A stretch of DNA of 49,370 nucleotides from Chloroflexota bacterium (lineage in GTDB: Bacteria > Chloroflexota > UBA5177): the NCBI GenBank assembly GCA_025449555.1, contig JANWJD010000030.1:1-49370 (forward strand), written 5' to 3'. A model generated the notes under the pieces. That model saw only the letters and a list, made by a program, of their open reading frames with translations. It did no database searches and was not told the origin of the DNA. Below are positions 5,598 through 17,877 of the stretch, piece after piece (the first letter of the stretch is position 1; each line of letters starts with the position of its first letter). A program made the position numbers and the translations under genes.

Positions 5598-7250
5598 CTA
5601 TGCTTCCCGTTTGAGCATGCCACCGATGGAAGGCAATCGAATCGGGTCCTCGGATTGTGCGATCGCCAGAGCAAGCTTCGGAATCTTGAGAACATCTCGG
5701 TACGCCAGGTAACGACTGCACCAGTTCGGCGCAAACTTATCGTTGAACTGGTAGAGGGATTTCAACTGATAGAACGACGAGAGGTGATCGAACAGGAACC
5801 GTCTGGTTTCATCGATGGCCTTCGAATCTATGTCATTGGCGGCGTTTGAGAGTGTGGCGAAGTTGAGGCTCAAACGGCAACTTCCTCGAGCCATATAAGT
5901 CTCGGCGGCGGCAATCACCAAAAACTCCATCAATCCATTTGGGCTATCAGGACGTCGCCGCATCGAATCGAGCGACCAGGCATTTCCCTGGTAGACCGGT
6001 GCCAGGGAGAGAAACCCGAAGACCGTATCGCCCTGTTGCGCCACGATCAGTTCGCAGTCCTTGTCCGCGGCTCGAGGCAACCGACCGAGCGTCATGGAGA
6101 AGCCGCGTTCACTCCCGCCTTTAGCCCGCACCCACGCCCGGGAAATAGTACGCACCTGGCTCATGATGTGAGGCGGCACCTGGTCTCGCCGGTATGTCAC
6201 GGCGGAAAATCCGAGGTCCGAGACGTGTCGCGCCGCCCGGCGAACCTTTCTCTTGAGCGACGACAGGTTGAATTCAGCCAGATCTATGACCGCTTCCTCT
6301 CCCACTTTGAGTGTCCCCAACCCCAGCGAACGATAGAGGTGAGCGGAGTTTCCAGAGATCCCAAGAAAACACGGCTCGAGGCCGTTGCCGACGGCAAACT
6401 GCATGAACGATGCGATGAGATCACGGTGGCGCTCGGGAGGTCCAACCGGGTCGCCGGCCACCAACGCAACGTTACCCCATACGCGATACGAGACAAACGC
6501 CGTTTTGGCGCTATCAAAAAAGTAACTTCTGCCGTCTTGCAACGAAAAGTATGCGAGCGTGTCCGATGCATACTGCTCAACGAGTTTGCGCGCGCGCGCG
6601 CGCTCCCATGCGGTGGCGCTGTGCTCGGGAATGAACGGCCGCAGCACCCGCAGGACCACGTACAACGCCACGCAGCAAGCGAAACCGGTGATCGAACGCT
6701 CGAACCATCGTGCTTGCGGAGTGAGATAGTGGTAGTACGCCGCGTCACTCAGCAAACGGAGTGGTTCCTGCACGACGTGAACCATGGACGGAGCCGGAGA
6801 GATATAACGCCGCAGAATGACGAAGCCCGCCACGACGTAGGTGACGTAGAGGACCACGATGGCATGTACACGCGAAAAAAGCCGGCCCGGAACGGCCATC
6901 CGGCTGGGCACGCTGAATGTATCACGCCCGCGAGTCAGCAGCCAGGCGAGTGACAGTGCCATAATCGCCTCCTCGAAATCGAGGCCCTTCGTCAGATGGA
7001 ACAGCGCGGAGAGCAAGAGCGCAGCGACCGCAATCTGAAGTGCTCGTTGACGTCGTTTGCGCAATCCATCTGCCACCAACACAAGCGCGAACCCAAGCAG
7101 TACGGTGGCGGATTGAGCACCTCTAATCACAGTAAGAGGAAGAATGTCGGCCAGAATCTCCATACGCGCCGGGACAGCGGGATACAGGGCCGAAACAATG
7201 TTCATAACGCCGGCCAGTGCGGTCAATAAGGCGCCGAGTCGCCTGGTCAC
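5598..7250 (-). CDS. MprF-like phosphatidylglycerol aminoacyltransferase (DUF2156 C-terminal domain)
   Basis: The C-terminal ~320 residues match the aminoacyl-phosphatidylglycerol synthase domain (DUF2156, GNAT fold), which moves an amino acid from aminoacyl-tRNA to a membrane lipid. Recognisable stretches are YFFDSAKTAFVSYRVWGNVA, LVAGDPVGPPE, FLGISGNSAHLYRSLGLG, LKRKVRRA and SRYLAYRDVLKIP. About five or six membrane helices precede it, fewer than in full-length MprF, so lipid flipping may be reduced or absent. The track extends the ORF to 7586. Those extra 112 residues have no membrane or family character and contain an inverted repeat, so GTG 7250 is used (about 550 residues). The start remains uncertain. 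Bases 6588-6603 are a (GC)8 repeat within the coding region. The lipid and amino acid substrates cannot be read from sequence. Confidence 0.82.
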   Translation of the reverse strand: MTRRLGALLTALAGVMNIVSALYPAVPARMEILADILPLTVIRGAQSATVLLGFALVLVADGLRKRRQRALQIAVAALLLSALFHLTKGLDFEEAIMALSLAWLLTRGRDTFSVPSRMAVPGRLFSRVHAIVVLYVTYVVAGFVILRRYISPAPSMVHVVQEPLRLLSDAAYYHYLTPQARWFERSITGFACCVALYVVLRVLRPFIPEHSATAWERARARKLVEQYASDTLAYFSLQDGRSYFFDSAKTAFVSYRVWGNVALVAGDPVGPPERHRDLIASFMQFAVGNGLEPCFLGISGNSAHLYRSLGLGTLKVGEEAVIDLAEFNLSSLKRKVRRAARHVSDLGFSAVTYRRDQVPPHIMSQVRTISRAWVRAKGGSERGFSMTLGRLPRAADKDCELIVAQQGDTVFGFLSLAPVYQGNAWSLDSMRRRPDSPNGLMEFLVIAAAETYMARGSCRLSLNFATLSNAANDIDSKAIDETRRFLFDHLSSFYQLKSLYQFNDKFAPNWCSRYLAYRDVLKIPKLALAIAQSEDPIRLPSIGGMLKREA

Positions 7251-7492
7251 GTGGCACGCCCCGGAGTGAGATGGGTGGACATTGAATCTCTTTACTTCAA
7301 AAATAGGCAGCCTCGACCGCACGGCCCTGGAGCAGCACATCAAGGAACGTGAGCCGTCGCGATTTACCGGTGCCAGTCTGATCCGGTTTTGCGCTACATA
7401 GAGTATCAGATACCGGTCTACCTGGGGGATAGATGCATTCGAGGCGAATGTCCTGACTTGCACGGGCCTTCTGCCTCTATCACCTTCCCTTT

Positions 7493-7513
7493 CACTGACG
7501 CTATATGTCAGTG
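7493..7513. promoter_or_regulatory. Inverted repeat in the mprF / orphan-gene divergent intergenic region
   Basis: CACTGAC and GTCAGTG form a perfect 7-bp inverted repeat around GCTATAT. It lies in the 366-base divergent gap between the probable mprF-like start (7250) and the gene at 7617. It is compatible with a dimeric repressor operator or a small hairpin. I see no confident promoter in this gap. Confidence 0.3.
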
Positions 7514-7616
7514 ACGGGACATTGCCCGCACCCACATGGAGACTTACGTCTTTCTCCAGCGACGGAAGAATGTACCTATGTGCCATTGACTAAGGCTGGA
7601 GCACCGGAGGAATGCG

Positions 7617-8153
7617 ATGCACATACTTGACATGGACCGAGCGGGCATAGACAGCGGAGTCTTTGCGTTTTCGACCGAGTTTTACACTGAACACTTCGTC
7701 GTGCACGCGAGATTATCGAGTCCGGAGCGGAGACTGTCCGACCACCTCAACGGTTCGGTAGCATCGGTTGACATTCGACCAGTGTCCGCCCTGCAGCTCA
7801 ACACGGGAGTGTCAGCGGAATTGGGCAGAACGCACGCCCAGATTACAAAGGCGCGCATCCTGTTCGTCGTACCGATTTCCGAACCGGATCGTCCCAGCGG
7901 ACAGAGCAATGCGGCGTGGAAAGCAACGTCGAAGTACGGCGCCTGGGCCGGCGTGGGACCCTACAGCATCAGCGGGACCATTCACACCGATGCGGGGCGC
8001 GACCCGCAGATTGCGCTCCGGCTGCTCGACAAGCAATTTCTTCCGTTCACCGCCGTGACGATCACATTCCCCGACGGTGAAAAGAAACACTTCCCGACGA
8101 TCATCGTCAATCGCCAATACCTCGACCTGCTGGCGCTGGAGGCAGGCACGTAG
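7617..8153 (+). CDS. Conserved-looking hypothetical protein
   Basis: The product has 178 residues and no signal peptide or membrane segment. It starts at ATG 7617 behind a good ribosome binding site (GGAGGA). I do not recognise a named family with certainty. It reads as a compact alpha/beta protein with the phrases FSTEFYTEHFVVHARLSSP, GRTHAQITKARILFVVPI, YGAWAGVGPYSISGTIHT and ALRLLDKQFLPF. Similar proteins of this length that start with an F-xTEFY-like phrase are, as I recall, widespread and uncharacterised in Chloroflexota; I could not check this. It ends only 20 bases before the promoter of the aromatic operon and is probably transcribed separately. A function cannot be given. Confidence 0.7.
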   Translation: MHILDMDRAGIDSGVFAFSTEFYTEHFVVHARLSSPERRLSDHLNGSVASVDIRPVSALQLNTGVSAELGRTHAQITKARILFVVPISEPDRPSGQSNAAWKATSKYGAWAGVGPYSISGTIHTDAGRDPQIALRLLDKQFLPFTAVTITFPDGEKKHFPTIIVNRQYLDLLALEAGT

Positions 8154-8173: not shown

Positions 8174-8202
8174 TTGACTGAAATGTGGGCTCCGCCTATA
8201 CT
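8174..8202 (+). promoter_or_regulatory. Sigma70-type promoter of the aromatic operon
   Basis: TTGACT (8174-8179) and TATACT (8197-8202) are separated by exactly 17 bases and are each one base from consensus. Transcription would start near A8210. That leaves about 23 bases before the leader peptide ATG and about 210 before the first enzyme gene. Confidence 0.85.
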
Positions 8203-8232
8203 TCCAATCAAGAAGCAGGAGTTTTCATAGTC

Positions 8233-8295
8233 ATGGCACTCCACGGGTCGGCGTCGGCCGATCGGTATTATTGGTTTTATAGGGGCATAACGTGA
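8233..8295 (+). CDS. Aromatic amino acid leader peptide (attenuation), 20 residues
   Basis: This ORF is too short for the ORF track. ATG 8233 follows GCAGGAG by 11 bases, and reading runs to TGA 8293-8295. The product contains the run RYYWFYR: two Tyr, one Trp, one Phe and one Tyr as five consecutive codons (8266-8280). It lies between a near-consensus promoter and an intrinsic terminator, upstream of the genes that make Tyr, Trp and Phe. This is the architecture of leader peptides such as those of the trp and pheA operons, where ribosome stalling on scarce charged tRNA decides whether transcription continues. Chance occurrence of five aromatic codons in a row at this position is very unlikely. 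Translation of the peptide has not been shown, and the way stalling acts on the RNA fold is inferred. Confidence 0.88.
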   Translation: MALHGSASADRYYWFYRGIT

Positions 8296-8338
8296 CGGTT
8301 CTATAAGAGGAACCGCCCCTCACGTTATGCCCTTTTTT
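8281..8338 (+). terminator. Attenuator: intrinsic terminator overlapping the end of the leader peptide
   Basis: GGGCATAACGTGA (8283-8295) pairs perfectly with TCACGTTATGCCC (8320-8332) and is followed by six T (8333-8338). Inside it a second stem, CGGTTC (8296-8301) with GAACCG (8310-8315), leaves a CCCC bulge. The 5' arm starts three bases after the last aromatic codon and contains the leader stop codon, so a ribosome held on codons 14-16 would cover this arm. Two competing pairings are visible: 8273-8282 with 8301-8314 (ten pairs, four-base bulge), and AGGGG 8281-8285 with CCCCT 8316-8320. Which of them acts as antiterminator needs RNA folding or probing. Confidence 0.9.
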
Positions 8339-8370
8339 GACCGGAGGTTTTCACCTCCGGTCTTCTTTTT
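8339..8370 (+). terminator. Second tandem intrinsic terminator in the aromatic operon leader
   Basis: GACCGGAGGT (8339-8348) and ACCTCCGGTC (8353-8362) form a perfect 10-bp stem with a TTTC loop, followed by TTCTTTTT. It begins directly after the T-run of the first terminator. A ribosome on the leader peptide would not reach it. It is therefore either an extra brake that lowers read-through or has its own control. Confidence 0.85.
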
Positions 8371-8420
8371 GCCTCACCAAGGAGAATCCCGTGATCGCGG
8401 TAGCAGAGGAGATTGGGAAT

Positions 8421-9434
8421 ATGATCATCGTCATGCAGAGCCATGCCGGCCCGGAGCACATCCGCAGCGTGGTACAGCGCATCGAGGAGATGGGATACCG
8501 ATCCAATGTCTCGGAAGGTGAGGAGACCACGATCATTGGCGTGATCGGACATAGCTCTCCGGATCAATTGGCTTCACTGGAATTCATGCCGGGTGTAGAC
8601 CGGATGGTCCCCGTCACCAAACCGTACAAACTCGGCAGCAGGGATTTCCGACCGAAGAGTACAGTGGTGCAGGTAGGTGACGCTCGCTTCGGCGGCGAAG
8701 CACTGGTTATGATCGCCGGTCCCTGCTCGGTCGAAAGTGACCACCAACTATGGGAGGCGGCACGCGCCGTCAAGGCAAGCGGCGCCCAGGTGTTGCGCGG
8801 TGGCGCTTTCAAGCCGCGTTCCTCTCCATACAGTTTCCAGGGACTCGGCAAGCCGGCCCTCGAGATGCTCGACCAGGTGGGCGATGAGTTGGGCCTCCAG
8901 GTGATTACCGAGGTGCTCACACCGGACGATGTCGACCTGGTCGCCTCATACGCAGACATCTTGCAAGTTGGCGCACGAAACATGCAGAACTTTACGTTGC
9001 TGCAGGAAGTTGGCCGCTCAGGTCATCCGGTGCTGCTCAAGCGTGGGATGAGCGCTACTCTGGAAGAACTGCTCATGTCGGCGGAATACATTCTGGCCAA
9101 CGGAAATGACAACGTGATCCTGTGCGAACGTGGCATCCGGACGTTTGAGGATTCCACCCGATTCACCCTGGACATCAGCGCGATTCCAGTGCTCAAACAC
9201 CTCACCCACCTTCCCGTCATCGTCGACCCGAGTCATGCCACCGGTAAGTGGGCGTTCGTGCCGGCGGTGGCCAAAGCGGGTGTAGCGGCGGGGGCGGACG
9301 GTCTCATCATTGAAGTTCACCCGCGACCCGAGGAGGCGTTGTCGGATGGGCCACAATCGCTGAAACTCGAACGATTCGCGCAACTCATGATTGAGTTGAA
9401 GCCTCTTGCCCTCGCGGTCGGCAGGTCCCTGTGA
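8421..9434 (+). CDS. aroF: 3-deoxy-7-phosphoheptulonate (DAHP) synthase
   Basis: This enzyme joins phosphoenolpyruvate and erythrose 4-phosphate, the first committed step of aromatic synthesis. The protein (337 residues from ATG 8421) has an N-terminal ACT-like regulatory domain ([20 protein letters not shown]), as in Thermotoga-type enzymes. The catalytic barrel follows, with [26 protein letters not shown] and DPSHATG. The regulatory domain usually gives feedback inhibition by Tyr or Phe. An in-frame GTG at 8391 with AAGGAG six bases upstream would add ten residues. I prefer ATG 8421 because homologues begin with M-I-I/V-V-M and it has its own AGAGGAG. The stop overlaps the tyrA GTG (GTGA). 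It is the first structural gene after the attenuator. Confidence 0.95.
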
Positions 9435-10276
9435 CCCAACGCCGAGTAGCCGTGATCGGCCTCGGCTTGATCGGGGCGTCGTTGGGAGGAGCGCTGCGCG
9501 CTCGGGGCTACCTCGTGAGCGGGCTGGACCATGATCCAGCTACCATGCAAACGGCTCTGGATCGAGGTCTGGTCGACGTCGTCTCCGATGACTTGAGGGT
9601 GGTTCTGAAGGAAGCGGATCTGGTGATCCTCGCCATGCCCGTCCTCTCCATCATCGATACGCTGCCTCAGATCGATGAACTGTCGCGTCCCGGTGCCGTT
9701 ATCATGGACGTCGGCAGCGTCAAAGGACCGGTGGTTGACGCCATGGAACGGCTGCCGGGTGCGGGGCGGATGATCGGTGGACATCCCATCGCGGGCAAAG
9801 AACAATCGGGACCCGGCGTGGCCGATGTCTCGCTTTTCCAGAGACGTTCATTTGCGCTGGTGCCGAGCGGCGCGACGAGCATTCCCACCCTTCACACTGC
9901 CGAGTCAGTGGTTCGAGCGGTAGGGGGTGTTCCGGTCGTCCTCGCGGCCGTGGAGCACGACCGCATGGTCGCCATGACCAGCCACCTTCCGCAACTGCTT
10001 GCGACGGCCCTCGCGCTCTCAGTCGAGCCGCGCGATGAGAGTCTGGCCGGGCCAGGGCTGCGCGACATGACCCGGCTGGCGGCGAGCGGGGCAAGCATGT
10101 GGACAGATATTCTGGTGTCGAATGCCGACAATATTGCGGCTGCGCTCGGGGGGTGTGTGGCGCAACTTCAAAACCTGAGCACGATGGCAAGCGCCGGAGA
10201 TACGGTGGCACTGGAAGGTGCCATGACGCTCGCCAACGAACGTGCCGCCACGATCGCCGGTTCGGTGCCCTCGTGA
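9431..10276 (+). CDS. tyrA: Prephenate dehydrogenase
   Basis: The product oxidatively decarboxylates prephenate to 4-hydroxyphenylpyruvate using NAD(P), leading to tyrosine. The N-terminal Rossmann motif is clear ([21 protein letters not shown]), and the substrate-site phrase [12 protein letters not shown] sits near residue 117. The helical C-terminal dimerisation region follows. At 281 residues it is a monofunctional enzyme without a fused chorismate mutase (the mutase is the separate aroH at 15501) and without an obvious ACT domain. GTG 9431 overlaps the previous stop by four bases, and its stop overlaps the aroA ATG by one base. Confidence 0.94.
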
Positions 10277-11553
10277 TGTGGCGCGTGCGTCCGTCCACGA
10301 TTGGTGGCTCGGCGTCCGTGCCGGGAGATAAATCTATCGCCCATCGAGCTTTGATGCTGGCCGGGCTCGCTCGAGGTACCTCCGTCATCCAGAATCTGCC
10401 GAGCGGCGAGGACGTCCGATCGACTGCGTCATGCATGGGTCGATTGGGCGTCGTACTCGACCTGCAATCCGGCAGCGCACGACTGGATTCGGCAGGCGAA
10501 CTGCGTGCACCCGAGCAAGAACTCAATGCGGGAAACTCGGGCACTACTATGCGATTGCTCGCCGGCATGCTCGCGGGCCAGACGTTCTCCAGCCGGCTGA
10601 CCGGTGATGCATCGCTCCGACGCCGTCCCATGGGAAGGGTGGTCGATCCTCTGCGCCAGATGGGAGCCTTGATTGCCACTCGCGACGGTTGCGCACCGCT
10701 CGATATCGCCGGCAGCAATCTCCACGGAATCACCTACACCTTGCCCGTCGCGAGCGCTCAAGTGAAGTCGGCGGTGCTGCTGGCGGGACTCTTCGCGACC
10801 GGCACGACCACGGTGATCGAGATCGTACCGGCCCGAGACCACACGGAGCGGATGCTCACTGCGTTGGGTCTGAACGTGCGACGACATGGGATGTCGGTCC
10901 AGGTCGAACGCGGCACACCTCCGAACGGATTCGAGCTGACGGTTCCGGGTGATATCTCATCCGCCGCATTTCTTTTGGCGGCTGCAGCCGTCACGGATGG
11001 CGCAGTGTCGCTGGATTCGATTGGGTTGAATCCTACTCGAACCGCCATTCTCAGTGTGCTCGAGCGGATGGGAGCTTCCGTCACTGCCGCGATAGAGCGA
11101 GAAGAGACCGGTGAGCCACGCGGATCAATCGCCGTGAGCGGCCGCATCGAGCGCCCGATCTGCCTCTGTGCGGAGGATGTCCCAGGGTTAGTGGATGAGC
11201 TCCCGTTAATCGCCCTGCTCGCCACCCAGGTCGCGGGTGAAAGCGTGATCGAAGGGGCAGCGGAGTTACGCGTAAAAGAAGCTGACCGGATCGCGGCGGT
11301 CACACAAGAACTTCAGGTGCTGGGAGCCGATATCGAGGAGAGACCGGACGGGTGGCGCATTCATGGCAAGAGACCGTTGCGAGGCAGAAAGGTGCAGAGT
11401 CACGGCGACCACCGCCTGGCTATGATGCTTGCAGTCGCGGGAGCGTGCGCCCAGGGAGAGACCACCATCGAGGGCGCCGAGGCAGCCGATGTCTCGTTTC
11501 CCGGGTTCGCCTCAGTCTTTGCGTCGCTGGGAGCCGCGATTGATGAAGATTGA
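10276..11553 (+). CDS. aroA: 3-phosphoshikimate 1-carboxyvinyltransferase (EPSP synthase)
   Basis: EPSP synthase transfers the enolpyruvyl group of phosphoenolpyruvate to shikimate 3-phosphate. The protein (425 residues) carries the family motifs PGDKSIAHRALMLAG at the N-terminus, NAGNSGTTMRLLAG near residue 85, LRRRPMGRVVDPL and ARDHTERML, and the C-terminal GDHRLAMMLAVAG and SFPGFASVF. The track begins far upstream, at 10099, but the family start is ATG 10276, which overlaps the tyrA stop (TGATG). The last 11 bases overlap aroE. Confidence 0.96.
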   Translation: MWRVRPSTIGGSASVPGDKSIAHRALMLAGLARGTSVIQNLPSGEDVRSTASCMGRLGVVLDLQSGSARLDSAGELRAPEQELNAGNSGTTMRLLAGMLAGQTFSSRLTGDASLRRRPMGRVVDPLRQMGALIATRDGCAPLDIAGSNLHGITYTLPVASAQVKSAVLLAGLFATGTTTVIEIVPARDHTERMLTALGLNVRRHGMSVQVERGTPPNGFELTVPGDISSAAFLLAAAAVTDGAVSLDSIGLNPTRTAILSVLERMGASVTAAIEREETGEPRGSIAVSGRIERPICLCAEDVPGLVDELPLIALLATQVAGESVIEGAAELRVKEADRIAAVTQELQVLGADIEERPDGWRIHGKRPLRGRKVQSHGDHRLAMMLAVAGACAQGETTIEGAEAADVSFPGFASVFASLGAAIDED

Positions 11554-12391
11554 TCGATTCGTGGTGATCGGCGACCCGATTGCGCACAGCCTGTCGCCGG
11601 TGATGCATCGTGCCGCCTTCGCCGCCGCGGGTGTCGACGCCACGTACGAGAAGGAACGGGTTTCCCCCTCCTCACTCGGTACGTGGGTTCAAGCCGCACG
11701 GGAGCGACCACTTGCCGGCTTCAATGTCACCATTCCGCATAAGGAATCGATCGGCTCATACGTCGACGAGCTGGACGAATCCGCTCGACGCGTGGGCGCC
11801 GTGAACACAGTCGTTAACCGCGACGGCGTGCTGACCGGATACAACACCGACCTTGCGGGCTTCATTGCTACGGTGCGATCTCTCGAAGTGGGACTGCGAG
11901 GGCAGCCGGTGGTGGTGATCGGAGCCGGGGGGTCGGCCGGAGCGGTCGTGCGGGCTCTGGACGATCTAGGCGCGCACGTGACCATCTGCAATCGACACGA
12001 AGGCAACGCCCGCAATCTGGCCGGGAGGCTTTCGATCCCGGCGACGACCATGGAACTCCATAGTTCCGCAGCACGACACGCCATCGAAAGTTCTCGTCTG
12101 GTGGTCAATACCACACCGCTTGGAATGAGCCATTTGCCGGTGTCGCCGCTTCCAAACGAGACGTATCTGAATCGACGAACGGCGGTCATTGACCTGGTGT
12201 ACGGGCTGACGACACCGCTCGTCACGCAGGCTCGGGCCGCGGGTTGCCTGGTGCTCGACGGGATTGAGATGTTGGTCCAGCAAGGCGCCGCTAGTTTCGA
12301 GCTATGGACCGGCGTGGCGCCGGACCTGGACGTCATGCGGGCAGCCTGCAGGCACTCATTCAGGGAGGTAGATCGATGCTCCGTTTCCTGA
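11543..12391 (+). CDS. aroE: Shikimate 5-dehydrogenase
   Basis: AroE reduces 3-dehydroshikimate to shikimate with NADPH. The N-terminal substrate domain has GDPIAHSLSPVMHRAAF and FNVTIPHKE with the catalytic lysine, and the matching aspartate lies in GYNTDLAGF. The nucleotide-binding loop reads VIGAGGSAGAVVRAL, followed by ICNRHEGNARNLA. The closing phrase GIEMLVQQGAASFELWTG is typical. The start is ATG 11543 (282 residues), not the track's 11429; it overlaps aroA by 11 bases. The 3' end overlaps aroC by 16 bases. Confidence 0.95.
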   Translation: MKIDRFVVIGDPIAHSLSPVMHRAAFAAAGVDATYEKERVSPSSLGTWVQAARERPLAGFNVTIPHKESIGSYVDELDESARRVGAVNTVVNRDGVLTGYNTDLAGFIATVRSLEVGLRGQPVVVIGAGGSAGAVVRALDDLGAHVTICNRHEGNARNLAGRLSIPATTMELHSSAARHAIESSRLVVNTTPLGMSHLPVSPLPNETYLNRRTAVIDLVYGLTTPLVTQARAAGCLVLDGIEMLVQQGAASFELWTGVAPDLDVMRAACRHSFREVDRCSVS

Positions 12392-13491
12392 CCGCCGGTG
12401 AGTCGCACGGTCCCTCCCTCACCGGCATCCTCGAAGGCATGCCGGCCGGCCTGCAGGTCGATACGCACTTGATCGACCGCGATCTGGTTCGCCGCCAGGG
12501 AGGCTATGGACGCAGCGGGCGCCAGAAGATCGAAAAAGATCACATCGATTGGCTGTCGGGCATGGAAAATGGCTGCTCGACCGGAGCGCCCATCGCGATG
12601 AGAATCGAAAACCGAGACTATGCGAATCAGCAAAAACGCGAAAAGCCGGTGTTGACTGTGCCGCGACCGGGACACGCCGACCTGGCGGGCGCCACCAAGT
12701 ATCGATTGGCAGACATGCGAACCGTGCTCGAACGAGCAAGTGCACGTGAGACGGCTATGCGGGTTGCGGTGGGAGCGCTCGCCAAACGGTTGCTCAGCGA
12801 GTTTGGGATCGTGGTGGCGGGCCAGGTCATTTCAATCGGCGATGAAGTAGTGCAAGGCGCGGATCTCGCGGATCCTGCAGTCCGTGATCGCATTGAAGTA
12901 TCAGAAGTACGTGTGGCCGATCCGGAGGCGGAACGGCGCTTCATCGAGCGGATCGACCAGGCCCGGCGTGACCGCGATACGCTGGGTGGCGTGTTCGAGG
13001 TGCAGGTTCTCGGCGTGCCGGTGGGCCTGGGGAGCTATGTGCAGTGGGATCGCAAATTGGACGGCCGGCTGGCGCAAGCAGTCATGAGCATCCAGGCGAT
13101 CAAGGGAGTCGAAATCGGCGCAGGGTTTGAGAACGCGCGGACGCCGGGCACCAGGGCGCACGATGCGATTCTGCCGGGTGAGAGCGGTCCGCAACGTGGC
13201 AGTAATCGCGCCGGGGGCCTGGAGGGCGGCGTGACCAATGGCGAACCGGTCATCGTGCGAGGGGCCATGAAGCCGATATCAACGACTTTGACTCCCATGC
13301 AGAGCATCGACGTCCGGACCGGGGAGGGCGCGCTGGCGCAGTATCAGCGATCCGACATCTGCGCCGTTCCTGCCGCTTGCGTGGTAGGCGAGGCGATGGT
13401 GGCGTTCGTCATGGCAGACGCGGTATTGGAAAAGTTTGGCGGTGACAGTATTGCTGAAATACACGAACACTTCAAATCGGTGGCGCGGTGA
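12376..13491 (+). CDS. aroC: Chorismate synthase
   Basis: Chorismate synthase uses reduced FMN as a catalyst to eliminate phosphate from EPSP and yield chorismate, the branch point for Phe, Tyr, Trp and other aromatics. The 371-residue protein begins MLRFLTAGESHGPSLTG and carries RRQGGYGRSGRQKIEKDHI, RPGHADLAGATKY, a RASARETAMRVAVGA stretch and the C-terminal YQRSDICAVPAACVVGE. ATG 12376 has GGGAGGT six bases upstream, inside the aroE 3' end; the longer track start at 12304 is not supported. The stop overlaps the GTG of aroKB (GTGA). Confidence 0.97.
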   Translation: MLRFLTAGESHGPSLTGILEGMPAGLQVDTHLIDRDLVRRQGGYGRSGRQKIEKDHIDWLSGMENGCSTGAPIAMRIENRDYANQQKREKPVLTVPRPGHADLAGATKYRLADMRTVLERASARETAMRVAVGALAKRLLSEFGIVVAGQVISIGDEVVQGADLADPAVRDRIEVSEVRVADPEAERRFIERIDQARRDRDTLGGVFEVQVLGVPVGLGSYVQWDRKLDGRLAQAVMSIQAIKGVEIGAGFENARTPGTRAHDAILPGESGPQRGSNRAGGLEGGVTNGEPVIVRGAMKPISTTLTPMQSIDVRTGEGALAQYQRSDICAVPAACVVGEAMVAFVMADAVLEKFGGDSIAEIHEHFKSVAR

Positions 13492-15059
13492 GGAACCTGA
13501 TTCTGACCGGCTTCATGGGGACTGGAAAGACCACGGTTGGCCGCATTTTGGCTCGTCGCTTCGGCCTGGAATTTCTGGACACGGACGATGAGATCGAGCG
13601 CACATGCGGTTGTAGTGTGGCCGAGCTATTTGCCCGCGACGGCGAGAGCTGTTTCCGCCAACTGGAAACGCAAATATTCAGTGAGGCGCTTCAGGCGTCC
13701 GGGCAAGTGATCGCCACGGGCGGGGGAACGCTCTTGAGCGGGAGCAACCGTCTGCTCCTGGGGTCCGACCAGGAGGTCGTGTGCCTGACCTGCGACCCGG
13801 ATACCATAGCGCAACGCGTCGGCGATGCACGCCAGCGTCCACTGTTTGACCCGCGGCAACCCCGGAAGGTAAGAACCCTGCTGGCGGAACGTGAGCCCGT
13901 TTACTCTCTCTACTCGCAGGTGGACACTACCAACAGATCGCCGGAGCAGGTTGCCCAGGCAGTCACAGATTTGATCCCGCTGGCTGAAGCCGCTGCCTTC
14001 GACCTCACCCAGACCCAGCAGTCGAGGGTTCTGTTCGAAGCCGGACTGTTGCCGCGTGCCGGCACGACTCTGGCGCGACATGGCTTGACGGCTTCGGTCC
14101 TGGTGCTCACCGATTCCACGGTAGCCGGCCTGCCCATCTTCAACGCGATGCGAGCGTCGCTCGCAGCCGCGGGGCTCGACACTCACGTCCACACGATCCA
14201 TCCGGGAGAGGAGCATAAAACGCTTCAGACCATGGACGGCGTCTACCAGGCAGCAATGCAGGCGAGACTGGATCGCTCCTCCACCGTGTTGGGAATGGGC
14301 GGCGGCGTCGTGGGAGACATGGCCGGTCTGCTGGCGGCAACCTACCTGCGCGGACTGAACCTGGTGCTGGCTCCGACGACGTTGCTGGCGCAGGTGGATG
14401 CGGCGATTGGCGGCAAGGTCGGCGTCGACTTTCATGCGGCGAAGAACATGATCGGGGCTTTCAAGCCGGCCAATCTGGTACTGATCGATCCAGCCGCCCT
14501 CCGGACGTTACCGGCCTCGACCCTCGCGGAAGGGTTGGTGGAAGTCATCAAGATTGGGTTCATGTGCTCCCAAGCCTTGATCTCGCAGCTGGAAGAAGTC
14601 ACGCTGGATGACGTGCTCGAGCACCCGCAGATCATTCGAGCCGCCGCTCATCAGAAGGTTGAGATCGTGCAGCGCGACCCACTCGAGCGCGGCGACCGGA
14701 TGCTGCTGAACTTCGGACACACCATCGGCCATGGGCTGGAAGCGGCCAGCGCATACCGGCTCTCGCACGGACAGGCGGTGAGTATCGGCATGGTGGCGGA
14801 GACGCGCCTGGCCGTGACCCACGGCTGGTGCGCCGAGTCGACGCTGGAGACTCTTCGCTCGCTGCTTGCTCGATTTTCGCTGCCGACTGAGGTCGGGCAC
14901 ATAGACTGTGACGCAGTCTTACGCTTCGTGGGTCAGGACAAAAAGCGACGGGCAGGCGCGATCCGGCTGGCGATTCCGCGAGACATTGGGGACGGGGCCG
15001 TGGTCGAGGTTTCACTCGACGATGTGCGATCGGCATTGACCGAAGGCGCGAAGGTGTAA
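13488..15059 (+). CDS. aroKB: Bifunctional shikimate kinase / 3-dehydroquinate synthase (AroK-AroB fusion)
   Basis: Two shikimate-pathway enzymes are fused in one 523-residue chain. Residues ~1-165 are shikimate kinase: P-loop [20 protein letters not shown], a substrate arginine in CFRQLE, and ATGGGTLL. Residues ~175-523 are 3-dehydroquinate synthase: [37 protein letters not shown], a metal-ligand stretch [10 protein letters not shown], and [12 protein letters not shown]. The two activities are not consecutive in the pathway (step 2 and step 5), so the fusion fixes stoichiometry more plausibly than it channels substrate. The GTG start overlaps the aroC stop, and one base separates it from aroQ. 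I see no frameshift or gap at the domain junction. Confidence 0.95.
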
Positions 15060-15060
15060 C

Positions 15061-15504
15061 GTGGCCTCGATCCTCGTCTTACACGGCCCGAACCTCAACT
15101 TGACCGGCACGCGTGAGCCGGAAATTTACGGACGCACCACACTGGCCGAAATCGATGAACGACTCCACGCGGTGGCGCGAGAACGTGGCGCCGTCATTCG
15201 CACGACGCAGTCAAACCACGCAGGGGTGCTGATTGATACGCTGCATGAGGTGCGGAACTGGGCCAACGGGTGCATATTCAACCCCGGTGCGTTCACACAC
15301 TACAGTTACGCCCTGCGAGACGCGGTCGCGGCGGTTGACTACCCAGTGGTGGAGGTCCATATGTCGCTCCCGGCGGCCCGCGAAGCGTTTCGTCACACGT
15401 CGGTCATCGCTCCGGTCTGTCTGGCACAGGTGGCCGGTTTCGGGGCACGCAGTTACGATCTGGCATTGCTCGGGTTATTGCAGAGCCTGGAGGGACGAAC
15501 GTGA
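15061..15504 (+). CDS. aroQ: 3-dehydroquinate dehydratase, type II
   Basis: Type II dehydroquinase removes water from 3-dehydroquinate by anti elimination and forms a dodecamer. The 147-residue chain has the flexible active-site lid [17 protein letters not shown] with the catalytic tyrosine, then [29 protein letters not shown] and the catalytic histidine in VVEVHMSLP. The GTG start follows the aroKB stop by one base, and the stop overlaps the GTG of aroH by four bases. No type I enzyme (AroD) is seen in the window. Confidence 0.96.
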
Positions 15505-15857
15505 AGGCGCTGCGCGGCGCGATCACTGCACATGCCAACACGGAAGAGGCGATCATCGATGGTACCCGTACCCTGCTGTCATGCCTGGTGGAGCGTAACC
15601 ACCTGACTCTCGAGGAAGTCGTCAGCGTCTTCTTCACGTTGACGCCGGATCTCAATGCGTGTTTCCCCGCACGTGCTGCGCGCGAGATGGGATGGGATGT
15701 GCCGATGCTGGACATGCAAGAAATCGACGTGCCCGGGGCCCTGGCGTTCTGCATTCGGGTTCTCGTGCACGCAGAAATCAACCGGCCGCCGCGCCATGCG
15801 TACCTGCGCGGTGCGGTCAGCCTTCGTCCGGACCTTGAAACAGAGAGTGCACCATGA
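15501..15857 (+). CDS. aroH: Chorismate mutase, AroH type
   Basis: This 118-residue protein matches the trimeric Bacillus-type AroH chorismate mutase, not the helical AroQ fold. AroH converts chorismate to prephenate, the entry to Phe and Tyr. Recognisable phrases are [37 protein letters not shown], the active-site run [21 protein letters not shown], and the C-terminal [17 protein letters not shown] 15501 overlaps the aroQ stop, and its stop overlaps the trpE ATG (ATGA). Together with tyrA in this operon it covers chorismate to 4-hydroxyphenylpyruvate. No prephenate dehydratase (pheA) gene is present here. Confidence 0.94.
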
Positions 15858-17305
15858 ACAACGACTATTTCCCCTCCCTCGGGGAGTGCCGGCGAATCGG
15901 TATGACCGGCTACCCGATCGCCATTTCCCGGGAAGTCTTCGCCGATCTCGACACGCCGGTGTCCGCCTATCTGAAAGTGCGCGAAGCCGGGCCGAGCTTC
16001 CTCCTGGAAAGCGTGGAAGGCGGTCAGAGCCTTGGCCGATACTCCTTCATCGGGTCACGTCCACGCCGCGTCTTGCGCGTGGCCGGTGGGATGCGCCGCT
16101 TCGACGATGATCCTCCCATTCTCTGTCCGGATCCACTCCAAGCGATTCGCGCGATGGTCGACGCCTACGGTCCTTCACCGGCCCCAGATGCTCGCTTTGC
16201 GGGCGGCGCGGTGGGTTACCTGAGTTATGAAGCCGCTCGCTGGTTCGAACGGATTCCGCTGGCCCCGGAAGATCCATTGGGACTTCCGGATGCGGTATTC
16301 CTCGACGTCGATACTGTCCTGATTTTCGACCACGTGCGCCGCAAGATTCGCATCGTGAGTCATGCCTGGCCGTCCGCATCGATCGAACGGTCGTACGGCT
16401 GTGCGGCCGATCGAATCGACGAGATCGCGGAGCGCCTGGAGCGCCCGGTGGATGCTCCGCCGCTGCCGCCGCCGGTGCACCTGCAACCGAGCAGCAACCT
16501 CGAGCCGTCGGAGTTCGAGGATATGGTGGTCGCCGGCAAGAAACATATCCGAGCCGGCGACATACTGCAAATCGTACTGTCGCAACGTTTGAGCATGCCG
16601 CTGGAGGGCGACCCCTTCGGGCTGTATCGGCGGCTTCGCACCGTCAGCCCTTCACCGTATATGTATTATCTCGACCTGGGTGACCATCAATTAGTAGGTG
16701 CTTCACCCGAATTGCTCATCCAGGTGGAGGACGGAGTCGTCTCGAGCAGGCCGATTGCCGGTACACGACGACGCGGCAGGAATCGCGAAGAGGATATGGC
16801 CCTGGCCAGGGATCTGGTCGAGGATGAAAAGGAGCGAGCCGAACACCTCATGTTGGTCGACCTCGCGCGGAACGATGTCGGACGGGTGAGCGCGGCGGGC
16901 ACGGTCGAAGTATCGAATTTCATGGGCGTGGAACAGTTCTCACATGTCATGCATCTGGTCTCGGATGTGACCGGCCGCCTCGGAGCGGACTTTTCGCCCT
17001 ACGACGCGCTACGCGCCGCGTTTCCCGCCGGCACGGTGTCCGGAGCGCCAAAAATTCGGGCGATGCAGATCATCTCCGAACTTGAACGTGACCAGCGCGG
17101 CTCCTACGCCGGAGCGGCCGGATTCATCGGCAAAGGCGGCAACATGGAAACCGCCATCACGATTCGAACGGGTCTGATCAAAGGTGGTGTGCTCCACCTG
17201 CAGGCCGGAGCGGGCATCGTGGCGGACTCGGTGCCGGAGCGGGAGTACGGCGAATCCATGAATAAGGCGCGGGCCATGTTGGAAGCCGCGGGAGGCGCAG
17301 CATGA
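15854..17305 (+). CDS. trpE: Anthranilate synthase component I
   Basis: TrpE makes anthranilate from chorismate and ammonia, the first step of the Trp branch. The 483-residue chain has the N-terminal LLES element (PSFLLESVEGG), which forms the tryptophan feedback site. The catalytic domain follows: AGDILQIVLSQRLSMP, SPSPYMYYLDLG, RPIAGTRRRGR, MLVDLARNDVGRVS, FPAGTVSGAPKIRAMQII and the terminal AGAGIVADSVPEREY. The assignment over PabB is supported by LLES and by trpG directly behind it. ATGA overlaps join it to aroH upstream and to trpG downstream. The remaining trp genes (trpD, C, F, B, A) are not in the window. Confidence 0.95.
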   Translation: MNNDYFPSLGECRRIGMTGYPIAISREVFADLDTPVSAYLKVREAGPSFLLESVEGGQSLGRYSFIGSRPRRVLRVAGGMRRFDDDPPILCPDPLQAIRAMVDAYGPSPAPDARFAGGAVGYLSYEAARWFERIPLAPEDPLGLPDAVFLDVDTVLIFDHVRRKIRIVSHAWPSASIERSYGCAADRIDEIAERLERPVDAPPLPPPVHLQPSSNLEPSEFEDMVVAGKKHIRAGDILQIVLSQRLSMPLEGDPFGLYRRLRTVSPSPYMYYLDLGDHQLVGASPELLIQVEDGVVSSRPIAGTRRRGRNREEDMALARDLVEDEKERAEHLMLVDLARNDVGRVSAAGTVEVSNFMGVEQFSHVMHLVSDVTGRLGADFSPYDALRAAFPAGTVSGAPKIRAMQIISELERDQRGSYAGAAGFIGKGGNMETAITIRTGLIKGGVLHLQAGAGIVADSVPEREYGESMNKARAMLEAAGGAA

Positions 17306-17877
17306 TCTTGTTGATCGACAATTACGACAGCTTCACTTACAACCTATATCAAGTGCTGTCGGTGCTCGGGGCTGAAGTTCGGGTAGAGCGCAATGACGCG
17401 ATCTCGGTTGAGGAGGTTGTACAACTTCGGCCGGACGGAATCGTGGTCTCGCCCGGTCCCGGCAATCCGGGAGAGGCAGGAATATCGTGCCGGCTCATGC
17501 GCGAAGTGGGGCCATCGATTCCCACACTGGGTGTCTGCCTGGGCCATCAGTGCATCGCCGCCGCGTTTGGCGGTAACGTGGTCGGTGCTCCGGTTCTGAT
17601 GCACGGCAAGACCTCCCAGGTCTTTCATACTCAGGCCGGCGTATTGGCGCGACTGCCGTCGCCGTTCCAGGCCGTCCGGTACCATTCGCTGACGGTCGAC
17701 GAATCGTCCTTGCCCGCGTCGTTGGAGGTGACGGCTCGCTCCGAAGATGGGACCATTATGGCATTGCGCCATCGCGAATACCCCATCGAGGGTGTGCAGT
17801 TTCACCCCGAATCCGTGTTAACGCTCGACGGGCCGCAACTCCTCAGCAATTTTGTCGCCATGTGTCGCCGGCCATAG
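17302..17877 (+). CDS. trpG: Anthranilate synthase component II (glutamine amidotransferase)
   Basis: This 191-residue class I glutamine amidotransferase supplies ammonia to TrpE. It begins ILLIDNYDSFTYNLYQ and has the nucleophile Cys in LGVCLGHQCIAAAFGG. The His and Glu of the triad lie in EGVQFHPESVLT. Proteins of this type often serve both anthranilate and aminodeoxychorismate synthesis, so a dual role with an unlinked pabB is possible. The ATG overlaps the trpE stop. It is the last recognised pathway gene of the operon. Confidence 0.95.
   Translation: MILLIDNYDSFTYNLYQVLSVLGAEVRVERNDAISVEEVVQLRPDGIVVSPGPGNPGEAGISCRLMREVGPSIPTLGVCLGHQCIAAAFGGNVVGAPVLMHGKTSQVFHTQAGVLARLPSPFQAVRYHSLTVDESSLPASLEVTARSEDGTIMALRHREYPIEGVQFHPESVLTLDGPQLLSNFVAMCRRP

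Follow-up and report, generated by a model that had tools for sequence, protein, structure and literature searches.

Leader peptides that sense several amino acids are known from Escherichia coli, where ilvL senses Ile, Val and Leu and thrL senses Thr and Ile. The E. coli trpL and pheL leaders carry codons that match the products of their operons and are followed by an intrinsic terminator before the first gene, with overlapping 1:2, 2:3 and 3:4 hairpins in between. For the aromatic pathway, the precedent in Corynebacterium glutamicum is the aroR-aroF attenuator (Neshat et al. 2014, as given in PMC11802643 and PMC4046766), in which a Phe-Tyr-Phe leader lies directly before aroF and the reported response is to Phe, not Tyr. 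A 2010 survey knew leader-peptide attenuation from Proteobacteria and Actinobacteria only and added a case from Firmicutes (PMC2965389). In the open-licence literature, we found no leader-peptide attenuator from Chloroflexota and no aromatic case from Chloroflexota or Acidobacteriota.

The locus presented here lies in a 49,370-nucleotide window, the whole stretch of DNA that was analysed and a contig of a 3.68-Mb draft Chloroflexota genome. On the evidence of sequence and comparison, we consider it highly probable that the element, which includes two adjacent hairpins, controls the aroF-...-trpEG operon by ribosome-mediated transcription attenuation. Its features are as follows.

8174 to 8202, forward strand: sigma-70-type promoter, TTGACT-N17-TATACT, read from the sequence, with similar promoters in two relatives (G004 and G002)
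8217 to 8221, forward strand: likely Shine-Dalgarno sequence of the leader ORF, AGGAG, 11 nt 5′ of the ATG, read from the sequence
8233 to 8295, forward strand: leader peptide ORF of 20 codons, MALHGSASADRYYWFYRGIT followed by the stop, read from the sequence, with the aromatic run kept in G001–G005
8266 to 8280, forward strand: codons 12–16, five aromatic codons for Tyr-Tyr-Trp-Phe-Tyr, read from the sequence, with a Tyr-Trp core invariant in six genomes
8281 to 8338, forward strand: hairpin 1, including the leader stop codon and a U run, from folding and compensatory changes in relatives
8339 to 8370, forward strand: hairpin 2 (T), 8339–8348 paired with 8353–8362, and its U-rich tail at 8363–8370, the conserved intrinsic terminator, from the sequence and relatives
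8391 to 9434, forward strand: aroF, DAHP synthase, with a GTG start at 8391 and an alternative ATG at 8421 (NF006421, 1.3e-149)
9431 to 10276, forward strand: tyrA-like prephenate/arogenate dehydrogenase (profile match, as for all genes below)
10273 to 11553, forward strand: aroA, EPSP synthase
11549 to 12391, forward strand: aroE, shikimate dehydrogenase
12376 to 13491, forward strand: aroC, chorismate synthase
13488 to 15059, forward strand: aroK-aroB fusion, shikimate kinase / dehydroquinate synthase
15061 to 15504, forward strand: aroQ, type II dehydroquinate dehydratase
15501 to 15857, forward strand: aroH-type chorismate mutase
15854 to 17305, forward strand: trpE, anthranilate synthase component I
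17302 to 17877, forward strand: trpG, anthranilate synthase component II

As in C. glutamicum, a mixed aromatic run precedes the gene for DAHP synthase and control would be by ribosome-mediated attenuation; the likeness is one of function and position only. aroR belongs to another phylum and its run lacks Trp, whereas Tyr and Trp are both invariant in the order of the window, and the operon described here spans the whole common pathway together with tyrA and trpEG. The preliminary description knew of no leader before the common pathway that mixes all three residues in one run. The Phe-Tyr-Phe leader is a precedent for such a mixture, but we found no report in the open-licence literature of a leader that combines Tyr, Trp and Phe, nor of the element itself. 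Like ilvL and thrL, a single peptide would sense several amino acids, though the amino acids and the pathway differ. In contrast to trpL and pheL, the hairpins lie next to each other and we found no competitor of the 2:3 type. The locus thus places leader-peptide attenuation in a phylum without a described case in the searched literature, and suggests that one peptide can report on several aromatic amino acids and gate their common pathway.

The promoter and the 20-codon ORF with its five aromatic codons are present as the preliminary description had given them, and the element includes a short, putatively translated ORF that carries a run of end-product codons. A TTGACT-N17-TATACT promoter was observed once against 0.4 expected from shuffles; its counterpart in G004 reads TTGACA-N17-TATACT, and that of G002 is likewise readable. 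Within the ORF, immediately 5′ of the aromatic codons, a small GC hairpin occurs at 8246–8263, with similar ones in G001, G002 and G003 and none in G004 or G005. The downstream genes proved to be the shikimate operon claimed earlier, in the order aroF-tyrA-aroA-aroE-aroC-aroKB-aroQ-aroH-trpE-trpG, with gene ends that overlap or touch. The aroK and aroB matches, fused in the window, also adjoin in G001, G003 and G005. Just upstream of the locus, a phosphatidylglycerol lysyltransferase-like gene (LPG_synthase_C) occupies 5598–7586 on the opposite strand. The same genome holds a second aroF-type DAHP synthase, 56% identical (L002, G000:C3:28926-29948), which has a promoter-like TTGACA...TATACT upstream and no visible aromatic leader or terminator.

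To place the element in its lineage, we compared the window with five relatives of the same family and order. The element stands directly before aroF in all six genomes, and its identity between them is 56–85%, with an upstream flank close to the background level of shuffled sequence. The relatives' leaders end in GYYYWFYRGMT, GHYYWFNTGHMVTVL, GCYYWWT, GNYYWYMTGV and DIWYWRRKGMT, each followed by the stop codon. Across the six leaders, Tyr followed by Trp is invariant, and after this pair come Phe in three leaders and Trp, Tyr or Arg in one each; Tyr codons alternate between TAT and TAC, as expected of coding selection. The earlier claim that one peptide senses Tyr, Trp and Phe fits best for the first two, which match the tyrA and trpEG genes of the operon, and less well for Phe, which occurs in the run of only three of the six leaders. 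pheA is absent from the window's aroF operon and was found elsewhere in four related genomes; a search near pheA in four genomes gave no aromatic leader.

Folding of the leader gives −62.2 kcal/mol (z = −6.1; none of 200 shuffles equally low). Hairpin 1 spans 8281–8334, with an outer stem P1 (8281–8295/8320–8334) and an inner stem P2 (8296–8302/8309–8315), and is followed by UUUUUU at 8333–8338. Hairpin 2, which the earlier list of hairpins had omitted together with its U tract, has the sequence GACCGGAGGT-TTTC-ACCTCCGGTC at 8339–8362, then TTCTTTTT. Both hairpins covary among the six genomes: 12 pairs are changed on both sides, a number reached in none of 500 shuffles, and 93% of positions pair, against 34–48% when the alignment is slid. 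The search among relatives that had been proposed at the outset thus recovered both the aromatic-rich short ORFs before aroF and covarying hairpins, and this conservation supports the original reading, in which a shikimate operon is preceded by a leader-peptide attenuator whose codons mix aromatic residues. The terminator had been placed in the hairpin just after the aromatic codons. That hairpin is strong and contains the stop codon, as claimed, but the intrinsic terminator that relatives conserve ahead of aroF is hairpin 2, present in six of six genomes and in other families. From the sequences, the ancestral terminator was most likely hairpin 2, because its U-rich tail is kept in all six, whereas the U run after hairpin 1 is full only in the window, a weak UUUUC in G004 and missing from the other four. 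With its own full U run, hairpin 1 of the window may serve as an additional terminator, one open to direct masking by a stalled ribosome.

A covariance model built from the six sequences was searched for matches beyond the order and recovered the element ahead of aroF in further families of Chloroflexota (L136, L095, L100, L171, L154, L207, L215, L220 and L209). The run is WYYYF in L136 (E = 8.8e-14), FYF in L095, FYFY in L100 and FWFYYF in L154; many Chloroflexota families outside the order have the same layout before aroF, mostly with Phe/Tyr leaders. Weak R1 matches at L124 and L125, and the phylum matches listed with them other than L136, had no adjoining aroF motif; they look like ordinary terminators or other sequence and were set aside. 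Of 108 Chloroflexota aroF upstream regions, 24 held an aromatic-rich short ORF, where shuffled regions gave 2.35 and the reverse strand 3; stricter criteria left 11 ORFs, against 0.1 and 0, respectively. As these counts are far above both controls, aromatic ORFs before aroF are not due to chance. Over the 24 leaders, the run lies 0–8 nt from hairpin 1 and hairpin 1 lies 0–6 nt from T, with one clear exception, L107, and hairpin 1 is mostly 47–65 nt long. The position of the stop codon ranges from 5′ of hairpin 1 to the hairpin loop, and the frame in which the hairpin sequence is read varies while the aromatic run stays. The sequence of hairpin 1 is not strictly conserved, with GGCAU replaced in several leaders. 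Comparison thus establishes, at the level of sequence, a predicted element made up of a leader ORF, its codon choice, both hairpins, a fixed spacing and a position before aroF.

Codon choice also varies with gene content. trpEG lies inside the aroF operon in the four genomes of the order that were read that far, the window's own, G001, G003 and G005. trpE was present in 4 of 6 operons with Trp in the run and in 0 of 9 without (Fisher p = 0.011, on hand-entered counts uncorrected for relatedness). In two genomes whose runs lack Trp, G138 and G114, trpE sits close by on the opposite strand and is preceded by a T-box-like leader; the T-box motif GGGUGGCACCGCGG precedes both genes (L238 and L239), where RF00230 scores of 57.8 and 59.9 bits fall short of the gathering cut-off, and no Trp leader was found before trpE in either genome. 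Separate trpC loci with upstream T-boxes occur in G001 (97.3 bits) and G005 (56.9 bits), and aromatic ORFs at trpC loci did not recur between genomes. Codon choice that tracks gene content in this way agrees with a leader that reports on the products of its own operon, and it seems to change when trpE changes operons.

Ribosome-mediated attenuation is very likely on these grounds, since the layout is conserved, the codons track gene content and trpE can have a T-box of its own where the run lacks Trp; a stalled ribosome best accounts for the codons, for their position at the base of hairpin 1 and for the terminator. In this scheme, RNA polymerase would start near 8210 and a ribosome would translate the 20-codon leader. 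Where charged Tyr-tRNA or Trp-tRNA is scarce, or in this genome also Phe-tRNA, the ribosome would stall at codons 12–16, at the foot of hairpin 1; with all aromatic tRNAs plentiful, it would translate as far as the stop, which lies within hairpin 1, and then depart. The state of hairpin 1 as polymerase passes hairpin 2 would then set termination at 8363–8370 or read-through into aroF. We infer from the layout the stalling, the direction from scarcity to read-through, and a physical link between the two hairpins.

With a ribosome modelled on the first, middle or last aromatic codon, or at the stop, the 5′ arm of hairpin 2 was held upstream by 4–5 kcal/mol on average at every position, and T folds at −13 to −29. 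A trp-type antiterminator sharing the terminator arm was not found in these equilibrium foldings, which gave weak pairings that did not depend on ribosome position and which leave room for a kinetic effect. The 3′ arm of hairpin 1 was less complementary to the 5′ arm of hairpin 2 than shuffled partners were (1977 of 2000 as low). Two candidate pairings were rejected. One, via the 3′ end of hairpin 1 (GCCCC with GGaGGC), was seen in a consensus fold with the base of hairpin 1 blocked, and was weak and not above shuffles; the other, between the aromatic codons and the 5′ arm of T (CUGGU with ACCGG), was marginal (24 of 2000 shuffles as low) and would reverse the response. In the absence of an equilibrium antiterminator, either a kinetic effect or an action of hairpin 1 on polymerase itself would be needed, and side-by-side hairpins without an evident antiterminator pose a clear mechanistic question.

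Two more specific switches were weighed, neither of which we think likely. As first proposed, hairpin 1 (8281–8338) would itself be the regulated terminator, and a ribosome stalled on codons 14–16 would cover its 5′ arm and allow read-through. The six U after hairpin 1 in the window and a 5′ arm that begins one to three bases past the aromatic codons suit this arrangement, but four of the five relatives have no U run there and the fifth has UUUUC, while hairpin 2 and its U-rich tail occur in all and would still halt polymerase. Masking by the ribosome can thus apply to hairpin 1 only, because no classical antiterminator was found for hairpin 2 and its arm is beyond the reach of a stalled ribosome. 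It is equally doubtful that hairpin 1 is an active anti-terminator, folding promptly behind polymerase when the ribosome stalls upstream and carrying it through hairpin 2, and unfolded by a ribosome that moves on to the stop, so that T terminates. This improbable reading would give Chloroflexota a leader-peptide switch of non-textbook design, with hairpin 1 acting on polymerase, no shared terminator arm, and folding set by ribosome position. The aromatic run just 5′ of hairpin 1, the stop codon usually inside it, its abutment on T, its persistence despite a varying reading frame and the failure to find a base-pairing antiterminator all point this way; its loosely conserved sequence does not, nor does the need for a put-like action on polymerase, which is not known in Chloroflexota. 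Under this reading alone, the element would resemble the put RNA of HK022 (PMC9378689), an RNA that acts on polymerase against termination; put is a phage element without a leader peptide, and the likeness is one of action, with no sequence relation evident.

Readings that dispense with the leader peptide fare worse. A T-box or riboswitch that binds tRNA or a metabolite, with the ORF incidental, is very improbable: T-boxes are common in these genomes before trp genes, but no Rfam family, RF00230 included, matched the window at its gathering score, and the aromatic codons are kept with synonymous variation and persist where the hairpin frame varies. Least credible of all is the idea of two terminators that serve the upstream gene without regulation, the aromatic ORF between them being fortuitous. 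That gene (7617–8153) is on the same strand as the leader and its end lies 20 bases upstream of the promoter, as this reading would have it; against it, the promoter intervenes, aromatic ORFs are far above chance and, in a check that we ran, the element is conserved at a constant position ahead of aroF, without conservation of the upstream flank.

Ribosome-mediated attenuation, the preferred reading, may extend to other phyla in a different form. Acidobacteriota aroF leaders, such as SSFSFRFWPFA and SSFSYRFWHFA (each followed by the stop), are rich in Phe, Tyr and Trp and by inspection have the textbook layout, in which CGAGUGGCGUUGG pairs with either the leader start or the terminator arm CCAACCCACUCG. 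Leaders of this kind, with mutually exclusive hairpins, are apparently a separate attenuator type. Such Phe/Tyr/Trp leaders, e.g. MALSYASSFSFRFWPFA, lie upstream of aroF at the Acidobacteriota loci L038, L042, L054, L077, L081 and L048. Lastly, in deltaproteobacterium MLS_D (L015), a leader ORF with the run LYFWYFYF, followed by two U-tailed hairpins, lies roughly 250 to 140 nt ahead of aroF.
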